From a virus, in IMG/VR virus record IMGVR_UViG_3300022745_000077, positions 1-40,317 of that record: a DNA stretch of 40,317 nucleotides; one strand, written 5' to 3'. A program made the translations under genes and the position numbers. The notes beneath the pieces are model-generated. The model was not told where the DNA came from. It searched no databases and saw only the letters and a program-made list of their open reading frames with translations. Below are positions 13,136 to 40,015 of this stretch, piece by piece. Position 1 is the first letter of the stretch; every line of letters begins with the position of its first letter.

Positions 13136-13971
13136 TCGACAAGGCACTCGATCGCTGGATCGAGACAAGCGCCAAAGCCCTCAAGAGTTGGCAGAAAGAC
13201 GTGCGCTATCGCGTCGACGTGCTGCGCGACTACACCGCCGGCAAGTACCTCGAGCAGCTGGCCGAGGTGGCCGACGCCGTGAAAAAGCGCGGCATCGAGC
13301 TGAAGAAGGCGCCGGCGACGACCAACCGCCTGCTATCGATCCTGCGGCGCGTTGGCAACCTGGCCATCAAATGGAAATGGACGCGCGAGGCGCACGGCAT
13401 CGAGCTGGTGCCCGGCGAGCTGCCGCGCGAGGCCTACGTGACGCCGGCCCAGGTGCGCAAGCTGATGGCGGCCGCCGAGCCGCTAACGCGCGACTTCATG
13501 GTGTTCGCATCGCTGACAGGCCTGCGGCGGGGTGAGGTCCTGCGGCTGCAAAAGGAACACCTGCGCGATGGTGGCGTGATGGTCGACAACCGCAGCAAGT
13601 CGGGAAAGTCTCGCTGGGTGCCGCTGGCGCCCGAGGCCGCGGCGATCGCCAAGCGGCGCGTGCCGTTCCAGATCAAGGCCGACAACCTGCGCAGGCGCGT
13701 CGACAAGGCGCGCGACGCAGCGGGGCTTCGCTCGGTGCAGCTGCGCGATCTGCGCCACGCATTCGGCACCTGGCTCGCCGAGAGCGGCATGCCGGCGCCA
13801 TCGATTCGCGACTTGATGGGGCACTCATCGCTGACTGTGACGAGCCGCTACGTGCAGACGGCGGCCAAGCACCTGGCGCTGGGCGTGAACAAGCTTCCGA
13901 GGCTGGGTGGGGTCAGGGCGGGGACAAGCAGCCAGAAGAAAGTGCAGCGAAAGACTGCAAAAGCTGCGTAA
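12961..13971 (+). CDS. int: Tyrosine site-specific integrase
   Basis: 336 aa. The N-terminal arm-binding domain begins MSIRKHGNRYQVRVRVGGG, followed by a SAM-like core-binding domain and the catalytic domain. Catalytic residues visible: Arg189 in TGLRRGE, Arg265 in LRDLR, His288 in LMGHSS and nucleophile Tyr297 in TSRYVQTA. The first His of the usual HxxR box is Arg262 here (RDLR), a known type of variation. It integrates and excises the phage by recombination between attP (13993-14052) and a host tRNA-Ser gene. The start overlaps xis by 175 bp. The last codons contain the first arm-type repeat. Confidence 0.93.
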   Translation: MSIRKHGNRYQVRVRVGGGKRIERTLPPGASYKDAQQLRAQIIRAQIDVQVGRPQQYLIDKALDRWIETSAKALKSWQKDVRYRVDVLRDYTAGKYLEQLAEVADAVKKRGIELKKAPATTNRLLSILRRVGNLAIKWKWTREAHGIELVPGELPREAYVTPAQVRKLMAAAEPLTRDFMVFASLTGLRRGEVLRLQKEHLRDGGVMVDNRSKSGKSRWVPLAPEAAAIAKRRVPFQIKADNLRRRVDKARDAAGLRSVQLRDLRHAFGTWLAESGMPAPSIRDLMGHSSLTVTSRYVQTAAKHLALGVNKLPRLGGVRAGTSSQKKVQRKTAKAA

Positions 13972-28707: not shown

Positions 28708-30798
28708 TCAGAAGCCGGGCGTCAGGCCGTCCGACATGACCGCGAACGAGGCGCCGTGACGCACGCCGACGTCGATCGTCTGGAAAGCGCGGATCAGCAC
28801 GTCGCCGGTCGTGAAGCCGGTGGAGTCGTACGGGTTCACCATGATCTCGGTGACGCCCCACTCGCCGATCAGCAGCTCTTGCCAGTTGCCGAACACGACC
28901 TCCGAGCAGATGCCGCTCGAGGTGCCTTTGGTCAGGTTGCTGCGCAGCTGGTTCGAGATCGCGTACGGGTAGCCCATGATGTCGCCGGCGAACGTGTTGC
29001 CGGTGATGCCACCCTGCATCGCCGACCAGAGGTATTGGCCGGTCGACGACTTCAGGGTGCGCAGGTAGCCGTTGGTCTTTGCGTTGATCGCGAAGCCCAG
29101 GTTGGCCTGCGGCGCGTTGGCCACGCGAGGCGCGCTGTACAGCTGAATCATGTGGTCGAACGTGAAGTTCGCCCCGTTCGTGCCGCCCACCACCGAGCCG
29201 ATGCCCGACTGGTTGACGATGCCGGTCGGCTGGTTGCTGGCGCCGCTGCCGCTGATGGCCGCGAGGTCGATGCCCAGCGCCATGACCGCGATCAGGTCCT
29301 GGCGCGCAAGCATCTCGATCGCCGGCGTCGACTGCAGGAGCATCAGGCGGCTCATCTTGCTGAGCGCACCGATCGTCTTCGGACGCAGCTGCACCTGGTC
29401 GAACGTGGCTTCCGCTTCCGTCGGCGCGCCCGACTCCGCCACCCAGAAGGTGTTGGTCTGGCCGCTCTGACGCGGGATGTTCACGTTGCCGACCAGGCCG
29501 GTCAGCATGCGCGCGCCGAGCTGCGCGGTCACCAGCTGGTTGCGCAGGACCTCGATGAACTGCGCGTCGAAGAGGGTCGTTTCGACCAGGTTGCCGCCCT
29601 GCACCGCGGTGCCGACCTGGTAGATCGCCCGCTGTTGCATCTGGCGGACCCAGCCGGGGTTGAGCGCCATCAGCGCGCGCGCGTGCTCGGCGTCCGGGCA
29701 GAACGGCAGGTTCATCGGATAGAAGAACGAGCCGGCCTTCGCGCGGCCCTTCGCATCGCGCGTCGCGCCGTTGCCGTCGACGTCGCGCTTGTTCGCCTTG
29801 GCGATCGCCACGCTGCACTCGCGCTCGAAGCCGGCGTCGGACCAGTCGCCCGACATCGCGGCGTTGACCGCCCGCAGCATCGAGTAGCGCGCCTTTTCGC
29901 GCTCGGTCAGGTCGAGGCCCGCGGCGTGGCCGAAGTCGGCCACGGGCTTCGCGCCGCCTTGCGTGACGTGCTCGAGCACCAGGCCGCGCACGTCGGCGAT
30001 CGACTTGCCGCTGCGGATCCAGTCTTCGACGAGCTCGCGCTTCAGCTTGAAGCGCGCGCCCATCCCTTCGATTTCGCGAACGCGCGAGGTCTCGATTTCA
30101 CGGGCTTCGAGACGGACGGCTTCGACATCGACCGTCGGCGTTGCGACCGCGGCGCCGCCCTGGCCGTCGTTTTCTTTCGGCATGGCTTCCCTTTCAAGAG
30201 GATTGATTGCGGCGGCTGCCGCGGGCTTGGTGCGCTCGACGCGCACAATCTTTTCTTCCATCGCGCCAGCGCGACCGATGCCGACGGTCTGGTCGGCCGG
30301 CACGCTGACGATGGACACTTCGTAGGCCTTCCAGCTCGTGGCCGTGAATTCGTCGACGTCGCCGTCGCCATCCATCTCGGTGGCGACGAAGCGCTGCACG
30401 TCGTACATGAACGACACGTTGCGCAGGATGCCGTCGTTGATCATCTCGACGACCGCTTCGGCGGCCGCAGTCTTGGCGAAGCGCACGGTCGCGTAGCCGC
30501 GCCGGTCGTCGCCGACCCACGCGCGCTCGACCACGCCCAGGACCTGGTCCATGTCGTGATTGAAGAGGAGCGGCGCGCCGTCGTTGAGCCGCGCGAAGTC
30601 GGCTGCGCCCGGGTCGTGCGACAGAACCTCGCGACCCCACCAACGATCGACCGGCTCTTCGCTCGAGAACGCGAACGTGATCGAACGCGTGTCGGGCGAC
30701 ACGACCGGCGCCTTGCGCTCGAGCGTGATGCGCCGGACCTGCGGCGCCAGCTTGTCGCCGTCCTTCAGGCGGCGATCGGCGGCCAATGCTTCAGGCAT
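28708..30798 (-). CDS. Prohead protease fused to major capsid protein
   Basis: 696 aa. Residues 1-175 resemble S78/U35 prohead proteases: His81 (LLFNHDMDQ), Ser129 (NVSFMYDV) and the Glu160 region (YEVSIVSVPAD) are the likely active site. Residues about 290-696 are an HK97-fold capsid protein (FWVAESGAPTEAEATFDQVQ, LLQSTPAIEMLARQD, AISGSGASNQPTGI, MGYPYAISNQ). An in-frame ATG at 30183 (residue 206, MPKENDGQGG) has AAAGGGAAG directly upstream and would give a separate 491-aa capsid precursor with its own delta domain. Confidence 0.9.
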   Translation of the reverse strand: MPEALAADRRLKDGDKLAPQVRRITLERKAPVVSPDTRSITFAFSSEEPVDRWWGREVLSHDPGAADFARLNDGAPLLFNHDMDQVLGVVERAWVGDDRRGYATVRFAKTAAAEAVVEMINDGILRNVSFMYDVQRFVATEMDGDGDVDEFTATSWKAYEVSIVSVPADQTVGIGRAGAMEEKIVRVERTKPAAAAAINPLEREAMPKENDGQGGAAVATPTVDVEAVRLEAREIETSRVREIEGMGARFKLKRELVEDWIRSGKSIADVRGLVLEHVTQGGAKPVADFGHAAGLDLTEREKARYSMLRAVNAAMSGDWSDAGFERECSVAIAKANKRDVDGNGATRDAKGRAKAGSFFYPMNLPFCPDAEHARALMALNPGWVRQMQQRAIYQVGTAVQGGNLVETTLFDAQFIEVLRNQLVTAQLGARMLTGLVGNVNIPRQSGQTNTFWVAESGAPTEAEATFDQVQLRPKTIGALSKMSRLMLLQSTPAIEMLARQDLIAVMALGIDLAAISGSGASNQPTGIVNQSGIGSVVGGTNGANFTFDHMIQLYSAPRVANAPQANLGFAINAKTNGYLRTLKSSTGQYLWSAMQGGITGNTFAGDIMGYPYAISNQLRSNLTKGTSSGICSEVVFGNWQELLIGEWGVTEIMVNPYDSTGFTTGDVLIRAFQTIDVGVRHGASFAVMSDGLTPGF

Positions 30799-30810: not shown

Positions 30811-32490
30811 TCATGAATGCGCGCGCACGCGCCGCAGCGGCGGCCGCGCCTTTTGACCCGCTTGCTGTTGCTGGGGCTGCTGCTGTGCACCGTCGCCCTC
30901 GTCGCCGTCCGGTTCGCCGGTGGGCTTGGCCAGGCCGTCGTCGGTTTCTCCCAGGGGTGCAGACGCCTGCACGATCCCTTTGTCGTCGACCTGCGACGGG
31001 TCCGTCTCGAGCACCAGGTCGTAGTCGGCTTGCATGTCGAGCTCCTGGCGGCGCTGCTTGAAGACGTCCTCGACGTCGACGCCGCGCTTGGCGAGCGCGT
31101 CCTGCAGCGACATGAGGCCGCTGCGGACCGCCAGCTTGTCGGCCTGCACTTCCTTGAACGGGTCGATCCAGTCCCAGCCGCGCAGCTTCCAGCGCACGGT
31201 GCAGTAGCGTTCCGCCGCACCCTGCCCGAAGAACTCGGGGAACATGGTCGACGACAGCGCGCCGCTCAGCACGGCCGCCTCGAGCCAGTCCTCGTAGATC
31301 TGCTGGAGGAAGTGATCGACCAGCCAGTTTTGAATGACGCGATAGTTGTCGCGGTCGTCGAGCAGCGCCAGGCGGCTCGAGCTGTAGTTCGACTGGCTGT
31401 AGTCCTTCGAGATCGCCTCGTAGCTGCAGCCGATGCCCGCCGCCACGCCGCGCAGCATCAGGCGCAGGAACGGGTCGGCATTGGCGTTCGGCCGCGTCGG
31501 GTTCCACCCGTTAAACGCTTCGCCGGGCGCCAGCTCCTTGATCAGGCCCGGCTCGAAGTCGTACACGCGCTCACCGTCGACGACGTCGTCGGCGCCCGAT
31601 GCGGGATCGGTCGGGTCGGCAACCTCGGGCGACTGGATGAAGCCCATCACCGCGGCGCTCGCGCGCGCGGCGATGACCTCCGATTCCTCGTAGCCGCCCA
31701 TGTGGCGCAGCCGGGTGATGGTCGTGTGGAACCAGGGCACGCCACGCGATTGGCCCGGCCGTTCGCGCACGTAGAGGTGATAGACCTCCTCGGCCGGCAC
31801 GCGGATCAGCCGGTTGGTCTGGATCTGGCCCGGCACGAATTGGAAGTCGCCCGGGTGGCGTGGATACAGCCAATAGGCCACCGGCCGCTTGAATTGGTCG
31901 ACCTCGACGCCCATGCGGACCTCGTTGCCGTCCGGCGTCACGCGCCCGTTCCACTCGTCGACCAGCTGGTCCGACTCGATCACCTCGAGCGCGAAAGGCA
32001 CGCGGCTCTTGCCGAACTTCTGGCGCACCTTGCGCACCAGGATCTCGCCGCTTTGAGGCAGTGCGCCCACGACCAGGCGCTGCAGCTCGCCGAACGAGAT
32101 GCCGCCGGTGACGTCGCAGTTGCCCGGCCTGCACCAGGAGCGCCACTCCGCCTCGATCGCATCGTTAACGGCGTCGTCGAGCTTGGCCTTTCCGTTCACC
32201 TTCCGCCGCATCATCACCTGCGTCTGCAGGTCGATGCCGGTGCCGACCACGTTGTTGGTGATCACGCGGCAGGCGTTCTTCGCGTAGTCGTTGTCACGGA
32301 CCAGCGACCGCGCGCGGTTGCGCAGCGTGCGCAGGCCCATGCGCACTTCCGCGTCGGCAGACGTGCTGGCCAGGATCCAGTCGGACAGCGTCCGATTGAA
32401 AGCGGCTCCCGCGAACGAACGCTTCTTCGGCGCACGAGCTGGCGCGATCGCGCGCGCCAGTCGCTGGCGAAATCGATCCCACACGTTCAT
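30811..32490 (-). CDS. Portal protein, lambda gpB family
   Basis: 559 aa. Family features of phage_portal_2: RTLRNRARSLVRDNDYAKNACRV near residue 55, GTGIDLQTQV, ALEVIESDQLVD, and the conserved ISKDYSQSNYSSSRLALL with YEDWLEAAVL further on. It forms the dodecameric vertex for DNA entry. The C terminus is Gln-rich and basic (QQQPQQQQAGQ). Overlaps the connector gene by one base. Confidence 0.93.
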   Translation of the reverse strand: MNVWDRFRQRLARAIAPARAPKKRSFAGAAFNRTLSDWILASTSADAEVRMGLRTLRNRARSLVRDNDYAKNACRVITNNVVGTGIDLQTQVMMRRKVNGKAKLDDAVNDAIEAEWRSWCRPGNCDVTGGISFGELQRLVVGALPQSGEILVRKVRQKFGKSRVPFALEVIESDQLVDEWNGRVTPDGNEVRMGVEVDQFKRPVAYWLYPRHPGDFQFVPGQIQTNRLIRVPAEEVYHLYVRERPGQSRGVPWFHTTITRLRHMGGYEESEVIAARASAAVMGFIQSPEVADPTDPASGADDVVDGERVYDFEPGLIKELAPGEAFNGWNPTRPNANADPFLRLMLRGVAAGIGCSYEAISKDYSQSNYSSSRLALLDDRDNYRVIQNWLVDHFLQQIYEDWLEAAVLSGALSSTMFPEFFGQGAAERYCTVRWKLRGWDWIDPFKEVQADKLAVRSGLMSLQDALAKRGVDVEDVFKQRRQELDMQADYDLVLETDPSQVDDKGIVQASAPLGETDDGLAKPTGEPDGDEGDGAQQQPQQQQAGQKARPPLRRVRAHS

Positions 32491-33035
32491 CAGAATGATC
32501 CGAAGCGGACGAACTTCTTGGTCGGGTCACCGAGACCCGAGGCGATTGCTTCCGCGCGCCGGCTCTGCGCGATCTGCAGCATCAGCTGAGTGCGCAGCGC
32601 CAGCAGCGCGGCCAGCGGTTCCTTCTTCAGCGAACGGCTGCCGATCGTGTATTCCACGGTCGCACCGCCCGTCACGCGCGCCGTGATCTCGGCCTGGACG
32701 GCCTCGAGCTGGATCTCGGCGGTGGTCCGGCCGTCATAGCCCGCAGCTTGCTGCGGAATGTTCGGCAGCACTTTCGTGCGGCCTCGCAGGACCTCGGCCA
32801 CGACGCCGGCGACGTTCTGCACGCGCCCGACGAACGAGTACACGCCCGCGGGCCACAGCGCCGTCTGGGCCGCGCTCTGCTGCGTGCGGTAGTCGTTGCC
32901 GCTCGCGATGGCAACGATGTCGATCGACTGCGGACCGCGCAACGACCAGGTCAACGTCCACGCGCTGGCCGGATAGTCCGCCGACAGGGTCGTCAGAAAA
33001 TCGAGCGTCGTGCCCGCGATGAGCTGGTTGATCAT
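32490..33035 (-). CDS. gpW-like head-tail connector with N-terminal beta domain
   Basis: 181 aa. C-terminal residues 105-160 (IQLEAVQAEITARV, then YTIGSRSLKKEPLAALLALRTQL) have the gpW/DUF6148 pattern: paired helices around an S-hairpin (VEYTIGSRSL). The first 100 residues are beta-rich (FLTTLSADYPASAWTLTWSL, GVYSFVGRVQNVAG), an added domain compared with the 68-residue lambda gpW. Position directly before the portal matches lambda W-B. Confidence 0.65.
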   Translation of the reverse strand: MINQLIAGTTLDFLTTLSADYPASAWTLTWSLRGPQSIDIVAIASGNDYRTQQSAAQTALWPAGVYSFVGRVQNVAGVVAEVLRGRTKVLPNIPQQAAGYDGRTTAEIQLEAVQAEITARVTGGATVEYTIGSRSLKKEPLAALLALRTQLMLQIAQSRRAEAIASGLGDPTKKFVRFGSF

Positions 33036-34234
33036 CGACTACCCGGCGGCCAGTTGACCTGGCGCGGCCCGATGCGTTGTTCGGATGTGCCCGCGGTCGA
33101 GCGAGGCCCGATGCGCTGCTCTTTCGTGCCGATGTACTGATGGAACATTGGCACGCTGCCCGTGAAGTCGCCGCGCAGCACGGTGTCGATCGCGTTGCCG
33201 GCTTCGACCACCGCCGCGGTTGCCCGCTGCGTCGCCGACCGAGCGTCCACCGCGGCGGCCGCTTCGACGACCGCGGCCGACGTGACCGACGCACCCCAAG
33301 TCGTGAAGTCCACCGCCGCGCCGGCCTCGGCGATCGCCGACTGCCAGGCAGCCAGGGCCGTCGCTGCGTCGACCGCGATTCCGGTCTCGGCAGCTGCGGC
33401 CGCGAATACGCTGGCCGCGCTCTGCGCGTCGCTCGCCGCCCCGACTTCGACGACCGCCGCAGCGATCGTCGCGATCGATGACGTCGCGTCAGCGGCCGCG
33501 CCCGCCTCTGAGACGGACGACAGGTTGCCGCTGATGGCCGATTGCGTATCCGCGGCCGCGCCCGCCTCAGACGTCGAGACCGCCGTCGTCTGCCCGGCCG
33601 AACTGGTATCAACCGCCGCGCCCGCTTCGGCAGCGGTCGCAACGAACCCCGCCGAGCTGCTCGGCGAATCCGTTGCCGCGCCGGCCTCTGCCACCGCTGC
33701 GCTGAAGTTGGCCAGCGCGCTCGCGGTGTCTGCGGCCGCCCCGGCCTCGGCAACCGACGACAGATTGCCGGCGATGCCGTCCTGCGTGCTGGCTGCAGAG
33801 CCCGCCTCCGCGACGCTCGCGCTTGAGGTCTGCGCGGCGGTCGGGGTATCGGCCGCGGCGCCGCTTTCGCTCGAGGCGACCACGTACGTCGCCGTGACGC
33901 TGGCCGTATCGACCGCCGCGCCGGACTCGACGACGCTGTCCGACAACGTCGCGCCGGTGCTCGACGCATCCGCCGCAGCGCCCGTCTCGGCGACCGTGCC
34001 GTTAATCACGGCAACGACGCTCGACGCGTCGGAGCCGGCGCCAGCTTCGGCAACCGCTCCAACGTAAACGCCGGTCGCGTCAGTCGTATCGACGGCGGCG
34101 CCGGCCTCGGCAACAGTCGCCGCGGTCAGAAGCGTCGCGTCGGTCGAGTCGACCGCCGCGCCCGCTTCGTTCGTGGCGTCGGAAAATGAGTTGCCTGTGG
34201 CCGCCTCCCACAGCGACCGCAGGTCAATGAACAT
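33032..34234 (-). CDS. Tandem-repeat protein, 17 units of 20 residues
   Basis: 400 aa. After 22 N-terminal residues, 17 repeats follow, each beginning E[AST]G[AI]A-like and continuing [AV]D(T)-x-SA; nearly all units are exactly 20 residues (one has 21). Consensus: EAGAAADTxSA, then 7 variable, VA. The C-terminal tail holds the duplicate EQRIGPR motif (about 13 residues apart) and FTGSVPMFHQYIG. No transmembrane segment or catalytic motif. The gene lies between TerS/TerL-side genes and the connector and overlaps the connector by 4 bp. A fibre, decoration or linker protein is likely; no family recognised. Confidence 0.75.
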   Translation of the reverse strand: MFIDLRSLWEAATGNSFSDATNEAGAAVDSTDATLLTAATVAEAGAAVDTTDATGVYVGAVAEAGAGSDASSVVAVINGTVAETGAAADASSTGATLSDSVVESGAAVDTASVTATYVVASSESGAAADTPTAAQTSSASVAEAGSAASTQDGIAGNLSSVAEAGAAADTASALANFSAAVAEAGAATDSPSSSAGFVATAAEAGAAVDTSSAGQTTAVSTSEAGAAADTQSAISGNLSSVSEAGAAADATSSIATIAAAVVEVGAASDAQSAASVFAAAAAETGIAVDAATALAAWQSAIAEAGAAVDFTTWGASVTSAAVVEAAAAVDARSATQRATAAVVEAGNAIDTVLRGDFTGSVPMFHQYIGTKEQRIGPRSTAGTSEQRIGPRQVNWPPGSR

Positions 34235-34254: not shown

Positions 34255-34944
34255 TTACTGCGGCACCTCGTCCCACACCAGGGCGCCATGCGCGCTGTGC
34301 GCGACGGGCGTGCCCGCGGCAAGCAGCGCCAGCACGCCGCCCGGCGGAACGATGATCGAGCCGTCGAAGTTCTCGACCGCGTTGCCCGACTGGCCCGTGA
34401 ACTGGCCGGCAGCCGTGCCGACGAACGAGAAGTTCGCGCCGGAGCCGCCCTGCAGCGCCGATCCGTGCGCGACCGCCAGGTTGGAGCTCAGGCCGGTCAA
34501 CGCCACGCCGGACACGTTCTTGCCTTGCGCGCCGGTCTGGCCGAGCGTCTTGCGGTTCCACGCGGCCGTGGCGGTCGAGATGGCAACGGTGGTCGAACCG
34601 TACGCCCACATGAAGCCACCCGGCCCCGTGTTGGTCGCCGCCGTGACGATCACCTGCAGGATCGCCTGCAGTATCACGAGGTTGACGCCGCTGTTCTGCG
34701 GGTTCCACACGCCGAGCACGGGCGTGCACGTCGCGCTGAGCGTCGCGATCGTGAAGGTCGCGTTGTTGATCGACGTCAGCGCGGCAAGGCCGGCAGCGAA
34801 CTTGAGGCCGCGATACGTCTGCTCGTAGAAGCGGCCCTGCGCCTCGGAAACGATGAGGTCGCCCATCTTCCCGGCGCGCGAGTTGATCTGAGCGCCGTCG
34901 GCGTAGACGGCAGAGCCGACCTGGTTGGTTTGCGGGTTTGCCAT
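34255..34944 (-). CDS. Putative virion beta-rich protein
   Basis: 229 aa. Starts MANPQTNQVGSAVYADGAQI and is beta-rich and Gly/Thr/Ala-rich throughout (NATFTIATLSATCTPVLGVW, ALQGGSGANFSFVGTAAG, then IIVPPGGVLALLAAGTPVAHS). This is typical of phage beta-jelly or head-fibre proteins. No family recognised. Part of the block between terminase and portal. Confidence 0.6.
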   Translation of the reverse strand: MANPQTNQVGSAVYADGAQINSRAGKMGDLIVSEAQGRFYEQTYRGLKFAAGLAALTSINNATFTIATLSATCTPVLGVWNPQNSGVNLVILQAILQVIVTAATNTGPGGFMWAYGSTTVAISTATAAWNRKTLGQTGAQGKNVSGVALTGLSSNLAVAHGSALQGGSGANFSFVGTAAGQFTGQSGNAVENFDGSIIVPPGGVLALLAAGTPVAHSAHGALVWDEVPQ

Positions 34945-34956
34945 GCGTTCTCTCCG

Positions 34957-35220
34957 TTACAGGGGCCGATAGTCGTCTTCGGCGATTTGCAGGTTCGTGG
35001 TGTTCTGCTGGACAGCCAGCAAAGCGCGCATGACCGCCAGCAGGTCGGTCAGCTTGGAATCGATGCGTGCGAGCAAGTCGGGCGCGTCGCCTGCGAGCAC
35101 AGCGACTTGCACATATGCCGTGGTCCCGTCGGGCATCGTCACTTGATTCATGACGACCTTCTTGCCCGTGGAGTCGACGGCAACCTGAACGAAGCTGTCA
35201 GTGCCGGTAGGGAGCGCCAT
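34957..35220 (-). CDS. Small hypothetical protein with C-terminal helix
   Basis: 87 aa. Beta N-terminal half (FVQVAVDSTGKKVVMNQVTM, TTAYVQVAV), then a heptad-like helix (LLARIDSKLTDLLAVMRALL). May act as a trimerisation or anchor piece for the neighbouring beta proteins; inference only. Abuts the 35221 gene. Confidence 0.55.
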   Translation of the reverse strand: MALPTGTDSFVQVAVDSTGKKVVMNQVTMPDGTTAYVQVAVLAGDAPDLLARIDSKLTDLLAVMRALLAVQQNTTNLQIAEDDYRPL

Positions 35221-35619
35221 CTAGACGTACTCCATGCTCAGGACGACGTCGCCGGCGGCGAGCGCAGTCGCGTCGCTGTCGGCCTGGCCGCCCGTGATCG
35301 TGTATGCGATGCCGCGGCGAAACTTCCACGGCGTGATGATCGGAACCGCGACGCCGGCGCCGGTGGTCGACGCAGGGATCGGGATGCGACGCACTGGCGC
35401 CGCCGCCTGGCCGCCGACGGGCGCTACGTTCTGGTCGTACAGCTTCAGATACTTCACCGCCGCACTGACGTTGATGACGATCAGCCCGGTGATGATCCCT
35501 TGCGAATCCTTGACCAACGTCGGGTTGACGGACGCCGCCGCGATCAACGAGTGCGGCAGGCTGGAGTCTTCGGCGTAGTCACCGAATCCGACCAGCTGCT
35601 TGACGCGCACGAAGTTCAT
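35221..35619 (-). CDS. Putative virion protein
   Basis: 132 aa, beta-rich (NVSAAVKYLKLYDQN, VRRIPIPASTTGAG, IAYTITGGQADSDAT). The pattern SAAVKYLKLYD with VPIITP resembles small phage capsid-associated beta proteins. No named family. Stop abuts the next gene start; part of the beta-rich block. Confidence 0.6.
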   Translation of the reverse strand: MNFVRVKQLVGFGDYAEDSSLPHSLIAAASVNPTLVKDSQGIITGLIVINVSAAVKYLKLYDQNVAPVGGQAAAPVRRIPIPASTTGAGVAVPIITPWKFRRGIAYTITGGQADSDATALAAGDVVLSMEYV

Positions 35620-36282
35620 CTAACCCACTCCCAAAAGCGTGAGCGTTTCGGCCGCAGCGCCGCCGCCACCGCCGCCTGCATTGGCAACGACGGCAGCGAA
35701 CGTCTCCTGCGCGCCGCCTACCGGGCTGCCAAACGTGGCCTGCCCGGTGCTGCTGATCGCTGCCGACTCGAGGCGCCACGATCCGATGGCCCCGTTGTTG
35801 TTGCTCGCGCGGCTGGTGAACGCGATCGGCGAAGTTCCGACAGCAGGGATGTCCGATGGCGACGACGTCGACGTGTACACGCCCAGCGCGATGATGGTGC
35901 TCGGCACGCTGACCGTGATGTTCCCGGACTGCATGTTGTCCGCGCCGGCGCCGAGAGCTTGGGACCCTGCGTTCGATCCGACGTACGCCCCGCCTGCGCC
36001 CACTTCGACCAGCACGATCAGGTCGGCCGAAATGCCCGACACCGTGTGCGTGCCCGCGTTGGCGTTGTCGAGCTTCCACACCGCACCCAAGCAATTGTTC
36101 GCGTTCGCGGCCAGCAAGGCACCTTGCGTGTACGAGCCTTGCCCGTCAGCGATGCCGGTCGGCTGCACGCCGCCGCCGTTCATCACAAACGCGATCAGCG
36201 TGTTGCCAGCGGTGACCCCGTTGAGAGTGACCGCTGTGCCGGCGCCGTTGTTGTCGGCTGCCTGGACGAAAAGATCGGACAT
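35620..36282 (-). CDS. Putative virion beta-sandwich protein
   Basis: 220 aa. A beta-sandwich-like sequence (TAVTLNGVTAGNTLIAFVMNGG, then LIVLVEVGAGGAYVG, STIIALGVYTSTSS) with a Gly-rich C terminus (NAGGGGGGAAAETL). Similar Gly/Ala-rich folds occur in phage surface proteins of unknown role. Start abuts the end of the gene at 36283. No family recognised. Confidence 0.6.
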   Translation of the reverse strand: MSDLFVQAADNNGAGTAVTLNGVTAGNTLIAFVMNGGGVQPTGIADGQGSYTQGALLAANANNCLGAVWKLDNANAGTHTVSGISADLIVLVEVGAGGAYVGSNAGSQALGAGADNMQSGNITVSVPSTIIALGVYTSTSSPSDIPAVGTSPIAFTSRASNNNGAIGSWRLESAAISSTGQATFGSPVGGAQETFAAVVANAGGGGGGAAAETLTLLGVG

Positions 36283-37152
36283 TTACGGGAACGCGCCGAA
36301 CCGAAGGCGTTTCCAGCCAAGCGAGTTGAGAGTCGAGCCGCCGTTAGGCCAGAACCCAACGCCAGGCTGACCGCTGTCCCACGTCGGCTGCGTGCCGCTG
36401 CTGAAATCCTTGCGAAGATTCACCGGGAGAGCCCCAGCGCCAACAGCAAGACCGCTGTTCGTAGTGGTGTTGGCGGTCGGCCCGAACTGCGTGCCGTTCC
36501 AGTACAGCGTGGCAGTGGCGGTCGCGTCGCCTGTGACGCCGACCACTTCGATGCGAAACACATCGCCGTCGACGGGCACGGAAGGCAGCAGGATCGGCGT
36601 CGTTTCAGCGCCTGGATCCCACAGCGCACCGAATACGCCGTGCACGCCTTGCCACATCACCCACGAGCAGTACGCGACGCCATCGGACCTGAACCCCACG
36701 ATGAACTCGTAACCCGTCGAGTTGTTGTTCGCGATGTTGAACCGCGACAGCAGTTCGACCTCGTGCGAGACGAGTGTGCCGGTCGGGAAATAGCCCGGCA
36801 CTCTGCGCAGCGTCCCTTCCATCCAGAAGTTGGCAGGGCACGCTACCGCGCTCGACTTGAGCACCGCTAGGTCGTCGTTGGTCCCGGCGACGAACCCGCT
36901 TGCGAATGCGCCCGGCGTTGAGCCGCCAGGGTTGGAGTTGACGTCCTGCCACCACCCGCCACCATCCGTTGCGCCGCCGAGCCAGTTGGCGTTAAACGGC
37001 GGCACGCCGGTGTTGGCTAGCGTTTCCTGAGCCGTGAAGCTGGTGTCGAAAAGCACGCTGCCCGCGCCGGCGGCCGCATCCCCCGCCGTTCCGAGGCCCG
37101 GATTCGCCGGCCACCCGACGACCGCCATGCGCGGCAGGATGAGCTCGCCCAC
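36283..37152 (-). CDS. Putative lectin-like (concanavalin-fold) virion protein
   Basis: 289 aa. The sequence FWMEGTLRRVPGYFPTG, VELLSRFNIANNNSTGYEFIVGF, FRIEVVGVTGDATATATLYWNG fits a LamG/concanavalin A-like jelly roll. Such domains bind sugars in many surface proteins. No signal peptide. It could decorate the capsid or give adhesion. Domain call is by pattern only. Confidence 0.6.
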   Translation of the reverse strand: MGELILPRMAVVGWPANPGLGTAGDAAAGAGSVLFDTSFTAQETLANTGVPPFNANWLGGATDGGGWWQDVNSNPGGSTPGAFASGFVAGTNDDLAVLKSSAVACPANFWMEGTLRRVPGYFPTGTLVSHEVELLSRFNIANNNSTGYEFIVGFRSDGVAYCSWVMWQGVHGVFGALWDPGAETTPILLPSVPVDGDVFRIEVVGVTGDATATATLYWNGTQFGPTANTTTNSGLAVGAGALPVNLRKDFSSGTQPTWDSGQPGVGFWPNGGSTLNSLGWKRLRFGAFP

Positions 37153-37355: not shown

Positions 37356-37922
37356 TTACAGCGCCAGGCTGTACGTGACCTGCAGGGTGTCGCTGATCGC
37401 GACCGTCTTCGAGCCGCCGCTGAAGTCGCCGGCGGACAGCAGCACGCCGGTCGTGTTGTCCTTGGTGGCCGAGCCGGCGCTCACGATGAAGCAGCCTGCG
37501 ACCGTGCCCGCGCTGGTGAAGGTGAAGCTCACCGCCGCGCTGGTGGCTTTCGAGCCGGCGGACGCGGCCGCGAACGAAGGCGTCGGACGGTTGCCGCTGT
37601 AGGCCGGCGCGTTCGTGCCGCCGACTTCGCTCCAGCCCGCATGCGACGCCATCGTGTCGCCGGCGACCGCGGTGCCGGTCCCCTTGAGCGCCATCACGAT
37701 CGCCGCCGTGTAGGCCGAGCCGGCGAGGTACTTGTCGAGGATGTCGTTCTTGCCGACCGTGGTGACGACGTTGTCGATCTTGTCGGCCCACTTGAGCGCG
37801 CCGTGCGCGTCGCGGCACTCGACGTGATACGTGCCCTTGATCCCGAGCGCTTCGGCCACCGCCATCAGGCGGGCGATCTGCGCGGCGGCGCCGTCGACGG
37901 CGTGAGCTTTCTCTGCGTTCAT
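37356..37922 (-). CDS. Hypothetical virion protein next to terminase
   Basis: 188 aa, start two bases past the TerL stop. N-terminal helix (AQIARLMAVAEALGIKGTYHVEC), then KIDNVVTTVGKNDILDKYLAGS, a motif that recurs in phage structural proteins of unknown function. A beta-rich second half follows (AAVSFTFTSAGTVAGCFIVS, TLQVTYSL). Probably a head decoration or fibre component; no firm family. Confidence 0.65.
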   Translation of the reverse strand: MNAEKAHAVDGAAAQIARLMAVAEALGIKGTYHVECRDAHGALKWADKIDNVVTTVGKNDILDKYLAGSAYTAAIVMALKGTGTAVAGDTMASHAGWSEVGGTNAPAYSGNRPTPSFAAASAGSKATSAAVSFTFTSAGTVAGCFIVSAGSATKDNTTGVLLSAGDFSGGSKTVAISDTLQVTYSLAL

Positions 37923-37924
37923 GG

Positions 37925-40015
37925 TCAGCGGTTCCTTATCGAGGCGCGACGACCCAACGGACGGCGCGGCATGGCCTTCGGCTTGATCGGCGCCGGTGCG
38001 GGCGCCACGGTTTCGACTTCCTTGGGCGGCCCTTCGTCCGCTTCAGGTCCGGCTTCTGCAGACGTCTGCACCGGCACAGCGATCGCCAACTGCAGCGCGT
38101 CGAGTGACGGCTGCCGCAAGCGGTTCTCGATCGCGGCCCAGTGCGCATCGCGCAGGAGGTTGGTCTTCAGGCTGCGCGCCGCGTGCAGCGCGTACACCTC
38201 GCAGTCGAGGGCCTCGTTGCGCGCGCCGGCCTTCTTCTGCCACACCTTCTTGTGCTTCAGCGACCGGTGCGGCGCCTTGATCTCGCTCGTCACCTGGTCC
38301 CAGTAGTCGGGTCGCACGCCGGCGTACCAGTGCATGCGCCCCGCGCCTGCGCCCTTCAGGCTGATGCGGCCCGGCACGTCGCCGCCGAGCAGCAGGTCCT
38401 TCGCGCGCGCGGTGCCCACGATGAATGGGCGCACGCCGTACTTGTAGGCCTTCTGCTTGCGGTCGACGTCGATCGACGGCTTGGGCGGCGCGAAGATCTC
38501 GCGGCGCTCCGCGCCTTGTTCGCTGGCGCCTTTGACCGCCATGACATTGCGGCCGCGATGCGCGCGCACGAACGAGTAGCCGGCATCAGCCGTCTGGCCG
38601 TCCGACGTGTCGATCGACGTGGCCACCACGCGCAGCTTCGCGCCGCACGCGTGCGGATATTCCGCCGCGATCACCTTCGCCAGGTCGAGCCACGCGCCCT
38701 GCCCCGGCACGATCGTCTGGCCGTGGAGCTCGCCCCACGCCACGAGCCACGACTCTTCGCCGCGGCCCCACGCGCGCAGCACGTAGGCGATGCGGTCGTG
38801 CTGGACGTCCGCGCCGCAGGTAAGCAGGAGCCCGCCGGCGGGCACCGTGCCCTCGGCGTAGTCCTCGGCGCGCTCGGCCAGCTCAGCGCCGGCCGGCATG
38901 TCCGACTGGTACTCGTACGCCTGCCCGAGCGAGCTGTTCCAGAAGGCGATCAACGAGCCCTGGTCGCCCAGCTCGGCCTCATGCTTCGCGGTCAGGTACT
39001 TCTCGACCAGGCGCGGCATGCGGCTGTCGGGGAACGCCGACACCAGCTCGTTCAGGTAGAAGCCGGCGACGCCGCGAAACTCCGCCGTCGACATCCACGC
39101 GCCTCGGCGCACGTTGCGCACGCGCTGCGCGTCGTTCCACGCCGACCCGCAGGCCGGGCAGATGTAGCGCGCGGTCTCCGGCAGCGCGTCGCCGAAGATC
39201 GGGTGCGCTTTGCCGGGCTCGCTCTGCCAGTGGACGTTGCCCCACTCGAGCTCGTGCGCCTCGCCGCAGTCGTGGCACGGCACCAGGTAGCGGCGCTGAT
39301 CGCTGGCCAGCATCTCGGCCTCGATCGAGCTCACTCCCTTGATGGTCGGCGTGCCACCGACCAGCGTCTTCGAGTCGTAGAACGTCTTGCCCCGCTCCTC
39401 CATCAGCTTGATCGAGTCGCCCTGCCCCTTGATGTTCAGGTTGCAGTCGTCGGGTTCCTCGACGATCTTGTACTTCAGCGGCGTCGACTTCACCCCGCTG
39501 GTGCTGTTCGAGCCGAAGGTCTTGAGGAACCCGCCCGGGAAGACCTTGCGGTTCTGCGTGTTGTCGAGCGACCGCGTCTTCGTGTTGACGATCTCGGCGA
39601 GCACCGGCGTCGCCTCGATCATCGGGATCAGCTTCTCGACGTTGTAGTCCTTCGCGTTCTGATCCTTCGGGAACATGATGCCGATCGGCGCCGGCGCCAT
39701 ATGCATCAGGTACCCGATCATGTTGTTGATCACGCCGTCGGTCCAGCCGACCTGCGCCGATTTCTGGCAGCAGACCTTGCGCACGCGGCGATCGGTGATC
39801 GCCTCGAGGATGCCGCGCAGGTATGGCGTGATCGTCAGGCTGAACTTGCCCGACAGCGCCGAGGCCTCGGGCGACAGGTAGCGGTACTGCTCAGCCCACT
39901 GCGCCACCGTCAGCCGCGGGGGCGGCGTCATCTTCGCCGCCGCCTGGCGCACCAGCGTGCTCAAGGGCGTCCGCCTGTTCTTCCCAGGCGCTTGCAAGTT
40001 TGCGGAGGAACTCAT
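37925..40015 (-). CDS. terL: Terminase large subunit, GpA family
   Basis: 696 aa. The N-terminal region PPPRLTVAQWAEQYRYLSPEAS and the ATPase segment with CCQKSAQVGWTDG (residues 82-94, deviant P-loop) and KIVEEPDDC (Walker B region) match GpA-type terminases. A zinc motif (CHDCGEAH, CPACGSAW) and the nuclease start CGADVQHDRIAYVLRAWGRG follow. It cuts concatemers and drives packaging; GpA relatives use cos ends. ATG 39931 (residue 29) is an alternative start, but LSTLVRQAAAKM before it looks homologous. Overlaps TerS by 125 bp. Confidence 0.93.
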   Translation of the reverse strand: MSSSANLQAPGKNRRTPLSTLVRQAAAKMTPPPRLTVAQWAEQYRYLSPEASALSGKFSLTITPYLRGILEAITDRRVRKVCCQKSAQVGWTDGVINNMIGYLMHMAPAPIGIMFPKDQNAKDYNVEKLIPMIEATPVLAEIVNTKTRSLDNTQNRKVFPGGFLKTFGSNSTSGVKSTPLKYKIVEEPDDCNLNIKGQGDSIKLMEERGKTFYDSKTLVGGTPTIKGVSSIEAEMLASDQRRYLVPCHDCGEAHELEWGNVHWQSEPGKAHPIFGDALPETARYICPACGSAWNDAQRVRNVRRGAWMSTAEFRGVAGFYLNELVSAFPDSRMPRLVEKYLTAKHEAELGDQGSLIAFWNSSLGQAYEYQSDMPAGAELAERAEDYAEGTVPAGGLLLTCGADVQHDRIAYVLRAWGRGEESWLVAWGELHGQTIVPGQGAWLDLAKVIAAEYPHACGAKLRVVATSIDTSDGQTADAGYSFVRAHRGRNVMAVKGASEQGAERREIFAPPKPSIDVDRKQKAYKYGVRPFIVGTARAKDLLLGGDVPGRISLKGAGAGRMHWYAGVRPDYWDQVTSEIKAPHRSLKHKKVWQKKAGARNEALDCEVYALHAARSLKTNLLRDAHWAAIENRLRQPSLDALQLAIAVPVQTSAEAGPEADEGPPKEVETVAPAPAPIKPKAMPRRPLGRRASIRNR

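Follow-up and report, generated by a model that had tools for sequence, protein, structure and literature searches.

A putative fibre stalk built of 20-residue repeats in an inserted gene block of a phage late operon

We analysed a virus record of 40,317 bases (the window), in which the minus-strand gene 33032..34234 encodes a protein of 400 aa made up mostly of 17 units of about 20 residues. In our judgement, this protein fairly probably serves as the stalk (fibril) in an accessory adsorption module that is attached to the virion at its neck and was inserted as a seven-gene block between the terminase and head-tail joining genes. We favour this reading because more than 170 proteins share the unit and the layout, with fibre and adaptor genes as neighbours and lectin fusions in some of them; because a phrog_8123 gene accompanies the family, the same gene order recurs in divergent phages (L046 and L316/L325), isolate proteins keep similar periods and AlphaFold2 predicts strands; and because the GP4 fibril, the LSH1 module and the SU10 dock provide precedents.

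The repeat gene is an open frame. Its first 22 residues (MFIDLRSLWEAATGNSFSDATN; 34169..34234, minus strand) include a short predicted helix at residues 5-13. The 17 units occupy residues 23-363 (33146..34168, minus strand) and follow the start pattern E-[AST]-G-A-A-x-D; fifteen of them begin at residues 23, 43 and so on up to 303, and the final two, which are degenerate, at 324 and 344. The unit region has a net charge of about -35. The remaining residues 364-400 (YIGTKEQRIGPRSTAGTSEQRIGPRQVNW; 33035..33145, minus strand) form a net positive tail of low model confidence. Within it, EQRIGPR occurs twice, at residues 372-378 (33101..33121, minus strand) and, followed by QVNW, at residues 385-391 (33062..33082, minus strand), a duplication already recorded in the first-pass annotation.

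Residue identity at a lag of 20 reached 0.384, whereas 5000 shuffles, with every lag from 10 to 40 considered, never exceeded 0.21. The first-pass description of 17 repeats of 20 residues is thereby upheld, but not their being near-perfect: pairwise protein identity between units averages 41% (maximum 70%), and the fifteenth unit has 21 residues, the other units having 20. The proposed unit start, E[AST]G[AI]A[AV]D, agrees with the conservation seen (E1 in 17/17 units; G3, A5 and D7 each in 16/17). Positions 11-18 are variable as described, yet variation is not restricted to them and begins at about position 8. At the DNA level the units are only 51% identical, identical codons are used between them at a frequency near expectation (0.446 vs 0.415), and Tandem Repeats Finder detected no array at the repeat gene. 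The array is therefore old and kept by selection on the protein. Trypsin would leave a peptide of 326 residues, and the units of the window protein would thus probably escape standard proteomics.

In a genome of 66% GC with many long false frames (among them one of 301 aa on the opposite strand and one of 411 aa on the same strand), the repeat gene might itself be a spurious GC-rich frame lying opposite or beside another gene, and its third-position GC of 0.83 compares with 0.87-0.92 in neighbouring genes. We consider this extremely improbable, since the periodic identity of 0.38 drops to 0.24 and 0.23 in the other two same-strand frames, both of which contain stops, and since the gene overlaps the next one through ATGA. 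Disrupted frames in relatives had been named beforehand as a refuting observation; the frame stays open in many relatives that carry the E-x5-D unit.

The window protein had no match at E <= 0.001 in Pfam, PHROGs or NCBIfam. The initial statement that it belongs to no named family is thus correct for these collections, yet the unit proved to be very widespread. Ordinary similarity searches returned a single relative, L003. Searches by tblastn of 50,697 phage records gave nothing for the window protein, no match for L003 or L071, and one C-terminal match for L058. Low-complexity filters that mask alanine-rich sequence are probably responsible, and the spacing pattern was therefore used instead. 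The first scan of viral contigs, for E-x5-D four times at 20 residues, gave at least 120 stretches; 108 loci were kept, and ten were dropped by eye as coiled-coil, acidic or other low-complexity sequence. For the second scan the pattern was made stricter (EAG); of its 77 stretches, about 70 were real. Among the matches listed, the two scans yielded more than 170 viral-contig proteins with the 20-residue E-x5-D unit, and the window protein likewise has at least four consecutive E-x5-D units at spacing 20. In bacterial and archaeal genomes, the strict EAG pattern gave three matches, all due to chance.

The layout common to these proteins consists of an N-terminal cap or (lectin) domain, the units, and a C-terminal tail of short repeats. 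Complete proteins contain 4-37 units and the incomplete L035 has 44 (among the matches listed). The count differs among related phages, a comparison that the first-pass annotation had proposed. In L064 and L286 the N-terminal part is a fused lectin domain of the concanavalin type. Both sets were selected on E and D, which accounts for part of the conservation at these residues; E and D in the units next to the pattern matches were set aside, as their counts are biased by the way they were obtained. Positions 15 and 19 were free of this selection and show F in 45% and I or V in 81%, respectively (among the matches listed). A phrog_8123 gene lies beside the array in 76 of the 108 first-set loci (among the matches listed), in most second-set loci and in the window, and occurs in one of 399 genomes of one phylum. 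The E-x5-D proteins probably constitute a large, so far unnamed family of stalk-like phage proteins.

For structure prediction, AlphaFold2 was given 33 in-register rows for the window protein. Two beta strands were predicted per unit at a pLDDT of about 70-74, and the tail scored below 60, mostly below 50; a relative ending in regularly spaced Trp (W-tail, see below) showed a matching two-strand pattern at lower confidence. Disorder, the outcome that had been set against an extended structure, was not returned. We regard the predicted two-strand fold as moderately supported, with a solenoid, a meander or a multimer fitting it alike. Caution is in order, as the analysis of phage LSH1 warns of spurious beta predictions on repeats (PMC13243795). 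The window model had no match in the PDB, its best viral match was an uncharacterised protein, and no relatives of the units, the W-tail, the Arg-type tail or the TWG domain (see below) were found in the PDB.

These predictions bear on two other explanations of the array. According to one, the protein is a low-complexity, mostly disordered acidic linker that spaces two partners and whose repeats are constrained by composition only. The sequence is indeed rich in Ala, Ser, Thr, Val and Gly, strongly acidic and, in the window copy, poor in aromatic residues, the pLDDT is only about 70-74 and a solved homologue was not found. Disordered linkers, however, rarely keep an exact register, and here a strict period of 20 is combined with fixed E1, G3, A5 and D7 and hydrophobic positions 15 and 19, while unrelated sequences in the same role hold a period of 20 or 22; we therefore find the linker unlikely. 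The other is a calcium-dependent parallel beta-roll of the RTX kind, in which ladders of E and D would bind metal. Invariant acidic positions 1 and 7 and two predicted strands per unit would fit such a roll, and the top of the PDB results, weak throughout, includes the RTX S-layer protein RsaA at a non-significant E of about 0.5. But the units lack the GGxGxDxUx nonapeptide, their period is 20 and not 9 or 18, and no Pfam haemolysin-type repeat was matched, which makes a beta-roll very unlikely.

The tails of the family are of two sorts. In one, W recurs every 11 residues and the gene often precedes a fibre gene; the other, Arg-type, often stands directly before a gene for the fibre-tail adaptor Gp77 (PF23148; solved relative 8jou_D). 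Among the matches listed, 76 of the 90 complete first-set proteins have W at intervals of 10-12 residues, in almost every case 11. These tails carry two W (11 proteins), three (15), four (30), five (1) or six (19), so that a rule of multiples of three, which was considered, is not clean; the counts are 2, 3, 4 or 6 with a single exception of 5, a distribution that may stem from relatedness or from docking in sets. Immediately upstream of the W-tail genes there is often phrog_8123, and farther upstream phrog_644 and an SU10-type adaptor. In 48 of 97 loci (among the matches listed), the next downstream gene encodes a product that begins with a TWG...N domain; a typical product of this sort is a spike or fibre that carries an S74 chaperone.

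The Arg-rich tails have regularly placed Arg, as in L297 (ERILVIGAEQRVLRIGAQDRHIVLN). Among the matches listed, a Gp77 profile match immediately follows 19 of 59 complete non-W proteins, compared with 0 of 110 W-tail proteins; tail-class counts are inflated by related sequences, such as the many near-identical HVSPRQDYWQAHE tails. The profile was built here from ten sequences. Four of these were compared with Pfam: L297 and L257 exceeded the PF23148 cut-off, and L286 and L008 fell below it but with E of 1e-4 and 4e-5, respectively. Two long proteins, L074:3099-6584 and L103:1006-5121 (both minus strand; 1161 and 1371 aa), start with YWVGGxGxWD...THWSATSGG and end in E-x5-D units followed by a W- or R/W-type tail; neither has a Pfam match.

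The window tail contains a single W, so the 10-12-residue W spacing is absent, and has the short tandem repeat described above. Judged by its sequence, the duplicated EQRIGPR region is an Arg-type tail, which by eye was likened to the L316 tail and to HVSPRQDYW of L008. Similarity and pattern searches found no close relative of this tail, and a search of viral contigs for QR[IV]GPRxxxW gave 45 matches, none of them a relative. A PF23148 match is absent from the window, where the gene after the repeat gene is phrog_5774, and profile comparison detected no relation between Gp77 and phrog_5774; the docking partner in the window is therefore an unproven candidate.

The late genes of the window are arranged on the minus strand in the order TerS, TerL (37925-40015), seven genes, head-tail joining protein (32490..33035; phrog_5774, solved relative 8gtd_M), portal (30811-32490), protease-capsid fusion, tail terminator, tape measure and tail tip. 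An integrase-family match is located at 13438-13869. The protease-capsid fusion (28708-30798, minus strand) joins an S78-kind prohead protease and the capsid protein (PF04586, then PF05065) in one frame of 696 aa. As the first-pass annotation held, the repeat gene thus lies between terminase and portal.

The seven-gene block, also on the minus strand, comprises a phrog_8123 homologue, five genes without assignment and the repeat gene. The phrog_8123 homologue (37356..37922) is the 5' gene of the block and, of the genes that accompany the repeat family, the one that does so most constantly; it is 37% identical to the companion in L058. It is followed by a gene of 289 aa (36283..37152), beta-sandwich or lectin-like by eye only and without a family match, and by one of 220 aa (35620..36282), whose Gly-rich end resembles, by eye, the linkers joining N-terminal domains to units in L046, L099 and L064. 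No relationship of the latter product to the N-terminal domain of L046 was detected, and a peptide scan gave no relatives. Next come a gene of 132 aa (35221..35619), with a weak relative beside the L277 repeat gene, a small open reading frame of 87 aa (34957..35220) and a gene of 229 aa (34255..34944). In L166, a relative of the last one (39% identity) is encoded in the interval from portal to capsid, which suggests that it is a virion part able to change its place within the head operon.

The interval between TerL and the head-tail joining gene measures about 4.9 kb in the window vs 120-273 bases in the nearest backbone relatives (TerL 62-67%, portal 53-58% identity), and in Marinobacter phage PS3 (TerL 48%) it holds one gene of 68 aa. 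By tblastn, neither phrog_8123 nor the repeat was found in any of 63 portal (backbone) relatives; many of these contigs are short, so the absence is strongest for those spanning TerL to portal.

In two divergent phages the block occupies the identical place. In both L046 and L316/L325, the order is phrog_8123, repeat protein, head-tail joining protein and portal, as in the window. In L325, a longer stretch of the L316 record, TerL (31%), phrog_8123 (59%), repeat protein and head-tail joining protein appear in the order of the window; in L046, phrog_8123 lies upstream and the record is too short to reach TerL. The repeat gene overlaps the head-tail joining gene by four bases, ATGA in the window and L046 and TTGA in L316. 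The L316 protein (474 aa) has an N-terminal domain of LamG-like appearance, eight unit starts and the tail SPERIGGATLRGIPRRIG. In L270, the block is found between capsid and head-tail connector genes, with a phrog_8123 gene 76% identical to that of the window; its position thus differs between phages.

The repeat protein could also be a head decoration or head-fibre protein, sitting on the capsid instead of the neck or tail. Its block lies inside the packaging/head operon, and both the L270 arrangement and the L166 relative of 34255..34944 would agree with such a role. This appears rather improbable to us, given that genes of W-tail relatives have an SU10-type adaptor on their upstream side and tail spike or fibre genes on their downstream side, and that Arg-tail relatives adjoin the fibre-tail adaptor Gp77. 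The earlier remark that this is an unusual place for a fibre is not supported: the same module is present there in two divergent phages, and in two closer backbone relatives a large gene of beta-helix or spike-like appearance, as judged by eye, separates portal from capsid (L140:11533-13941, 802 aa; L141:5111-6901, 596 aa), so that adsorption-type genes are not exceptional inside the backbone operon. The suggested extended fibre or solenoid of tuned length is backed indirectly by varying unit number, predicted strands, fibre, spike and adaptor neighbours, and occasional lectin domains.

If the protein is a stalk, each 20-residue unit would contribute a fixed length of beta structure, and the number of units would set its reach. 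Docking would fall to the Arg-type tail, through contact with some component of the neck or collar; the head-tail joining protein is a candidate partner by gene order and overlap only. Parts that bind the host surface may reside on the N-terminal side, since relatives fuse lectin domains there, or in the products of 36283-37152, 35620-36282 or 34255-34944. The ATGA overlap probably couples translation of the repeat gene to that of the head-tail joining gene downstream. Across the family, the stalk-like proteins probably present host-binding parts some way off the virus particle, at a distance that can be adjusted.

More tentatively, the family may belong to a widespread, modular kind of adsorption cassette in tailed phages: stalks with a common beta period of 20-22 residues, interchangeable in sequence and provided with a C-terminal address tag. 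The window would then represent a third version, docked at the neck and lacking Gp77. In such cassettes Trp repeats would address trimeric TWG-type fibres, and Arg repeats collars of the Gp77 type or of the head-tail joining type. With units setting the reach and the tag setting the partner, cassettes could move between phage lineages and genome positions. If this is true, many hypothetical genes could be labelled as fibre stalks and their partners predicted from the tail sequence, and the evolution of reach by unit addition would become testable. The unit occurs in at least 170 viral contigs and still has no curated model, in part because low-complexity filters probably hide it.

Among isolates, Bcep22-like and others, in which Gp77 was located by means of the solved adaptor, proteins in the same role are encoded upstream of Gp77 in BcepIL02 (gp56), JC1 (gp54), BcepMigl (gp28), Itty13 (gp15), DSL-LC06 and Mae-JY22, with one or two genes intervening in BcepMigl and Mae-JY22. 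For these six and the W-tail protein of DSL-LC04, the best period (tested from 12 to 30) was 20 or 22 in 7/7 cases, matched by at most 4 of 2000 shuffles in six and by 118 in Itty13. Different sequences holding such a period suggest one structural period with interchangeable sequence. A point against the stalk reading is that virion proteomics of JC1 detected gp53, gp55 and gp56, and gp54 is unlisted (PMC9144972).

The DSL-LC04 protein (L135:1150-2280; 376 aa) has 22-residue V-x-V-T-G-V-Q-x repeats; its repeat sequence and period thus differ from those of the E-x5-D family, but layout and W-tail are alike, and its gene follows an adaptor gene and precedes an intramolecular-chaperone gene and a putative lectin. 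In Microcystis phage Mae-JY22, L323:744-1421 (225 aa) has 22-residue D-A-T-H-A-H-P repeats and an Arg-type tail (ERALVIPTETRALVVVAETRAL), and stands a few genes before a Gp77 relative.

Three known systems can be compared with the module. In the description available from PMC13243795, the GP4 fibril (8JOU_g) joins an adhesin to the tail collar. The window protein did not match 8JOU_g in the PDB, either by sequence or with its moderate-confidence model. The GP4 fibril, as described there, and the Bcep22-like genes before Gp77 show no detected similarity to the E-x5-D unit, and the window has phrog_5774 in place of Gp77; features shared with the products of those Bcep22-like genes are a repeat period of 20-22 and an Arg-type tail, and these genes lie upstream of the adaptor gene. 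Phage LSH1 has an extra structural module, gp34-gp36, with a payload adhesin, a fibril protein and an Ig-like protein (PMC13243795). This module lies downstream of lysis genes, unlike that of the window, but by its description it, too, is an accessory block that some of the related genomes lack, and its payload adhesin contains repetitive beta regions that are poorly modelled (PMC13243795). Finally, in the SU10 fibre dock, Trp839, Trp847 and Trp857 hold a trimeric fibre (PMC9509320). The dock loop belongs to a nozzle protein and not to a repeat stalk, and the window tail is of the Arg-type with one Trp; the regularly spaced Trp of the loop nevertheless resembles the W-every-11 tails of many relatives.
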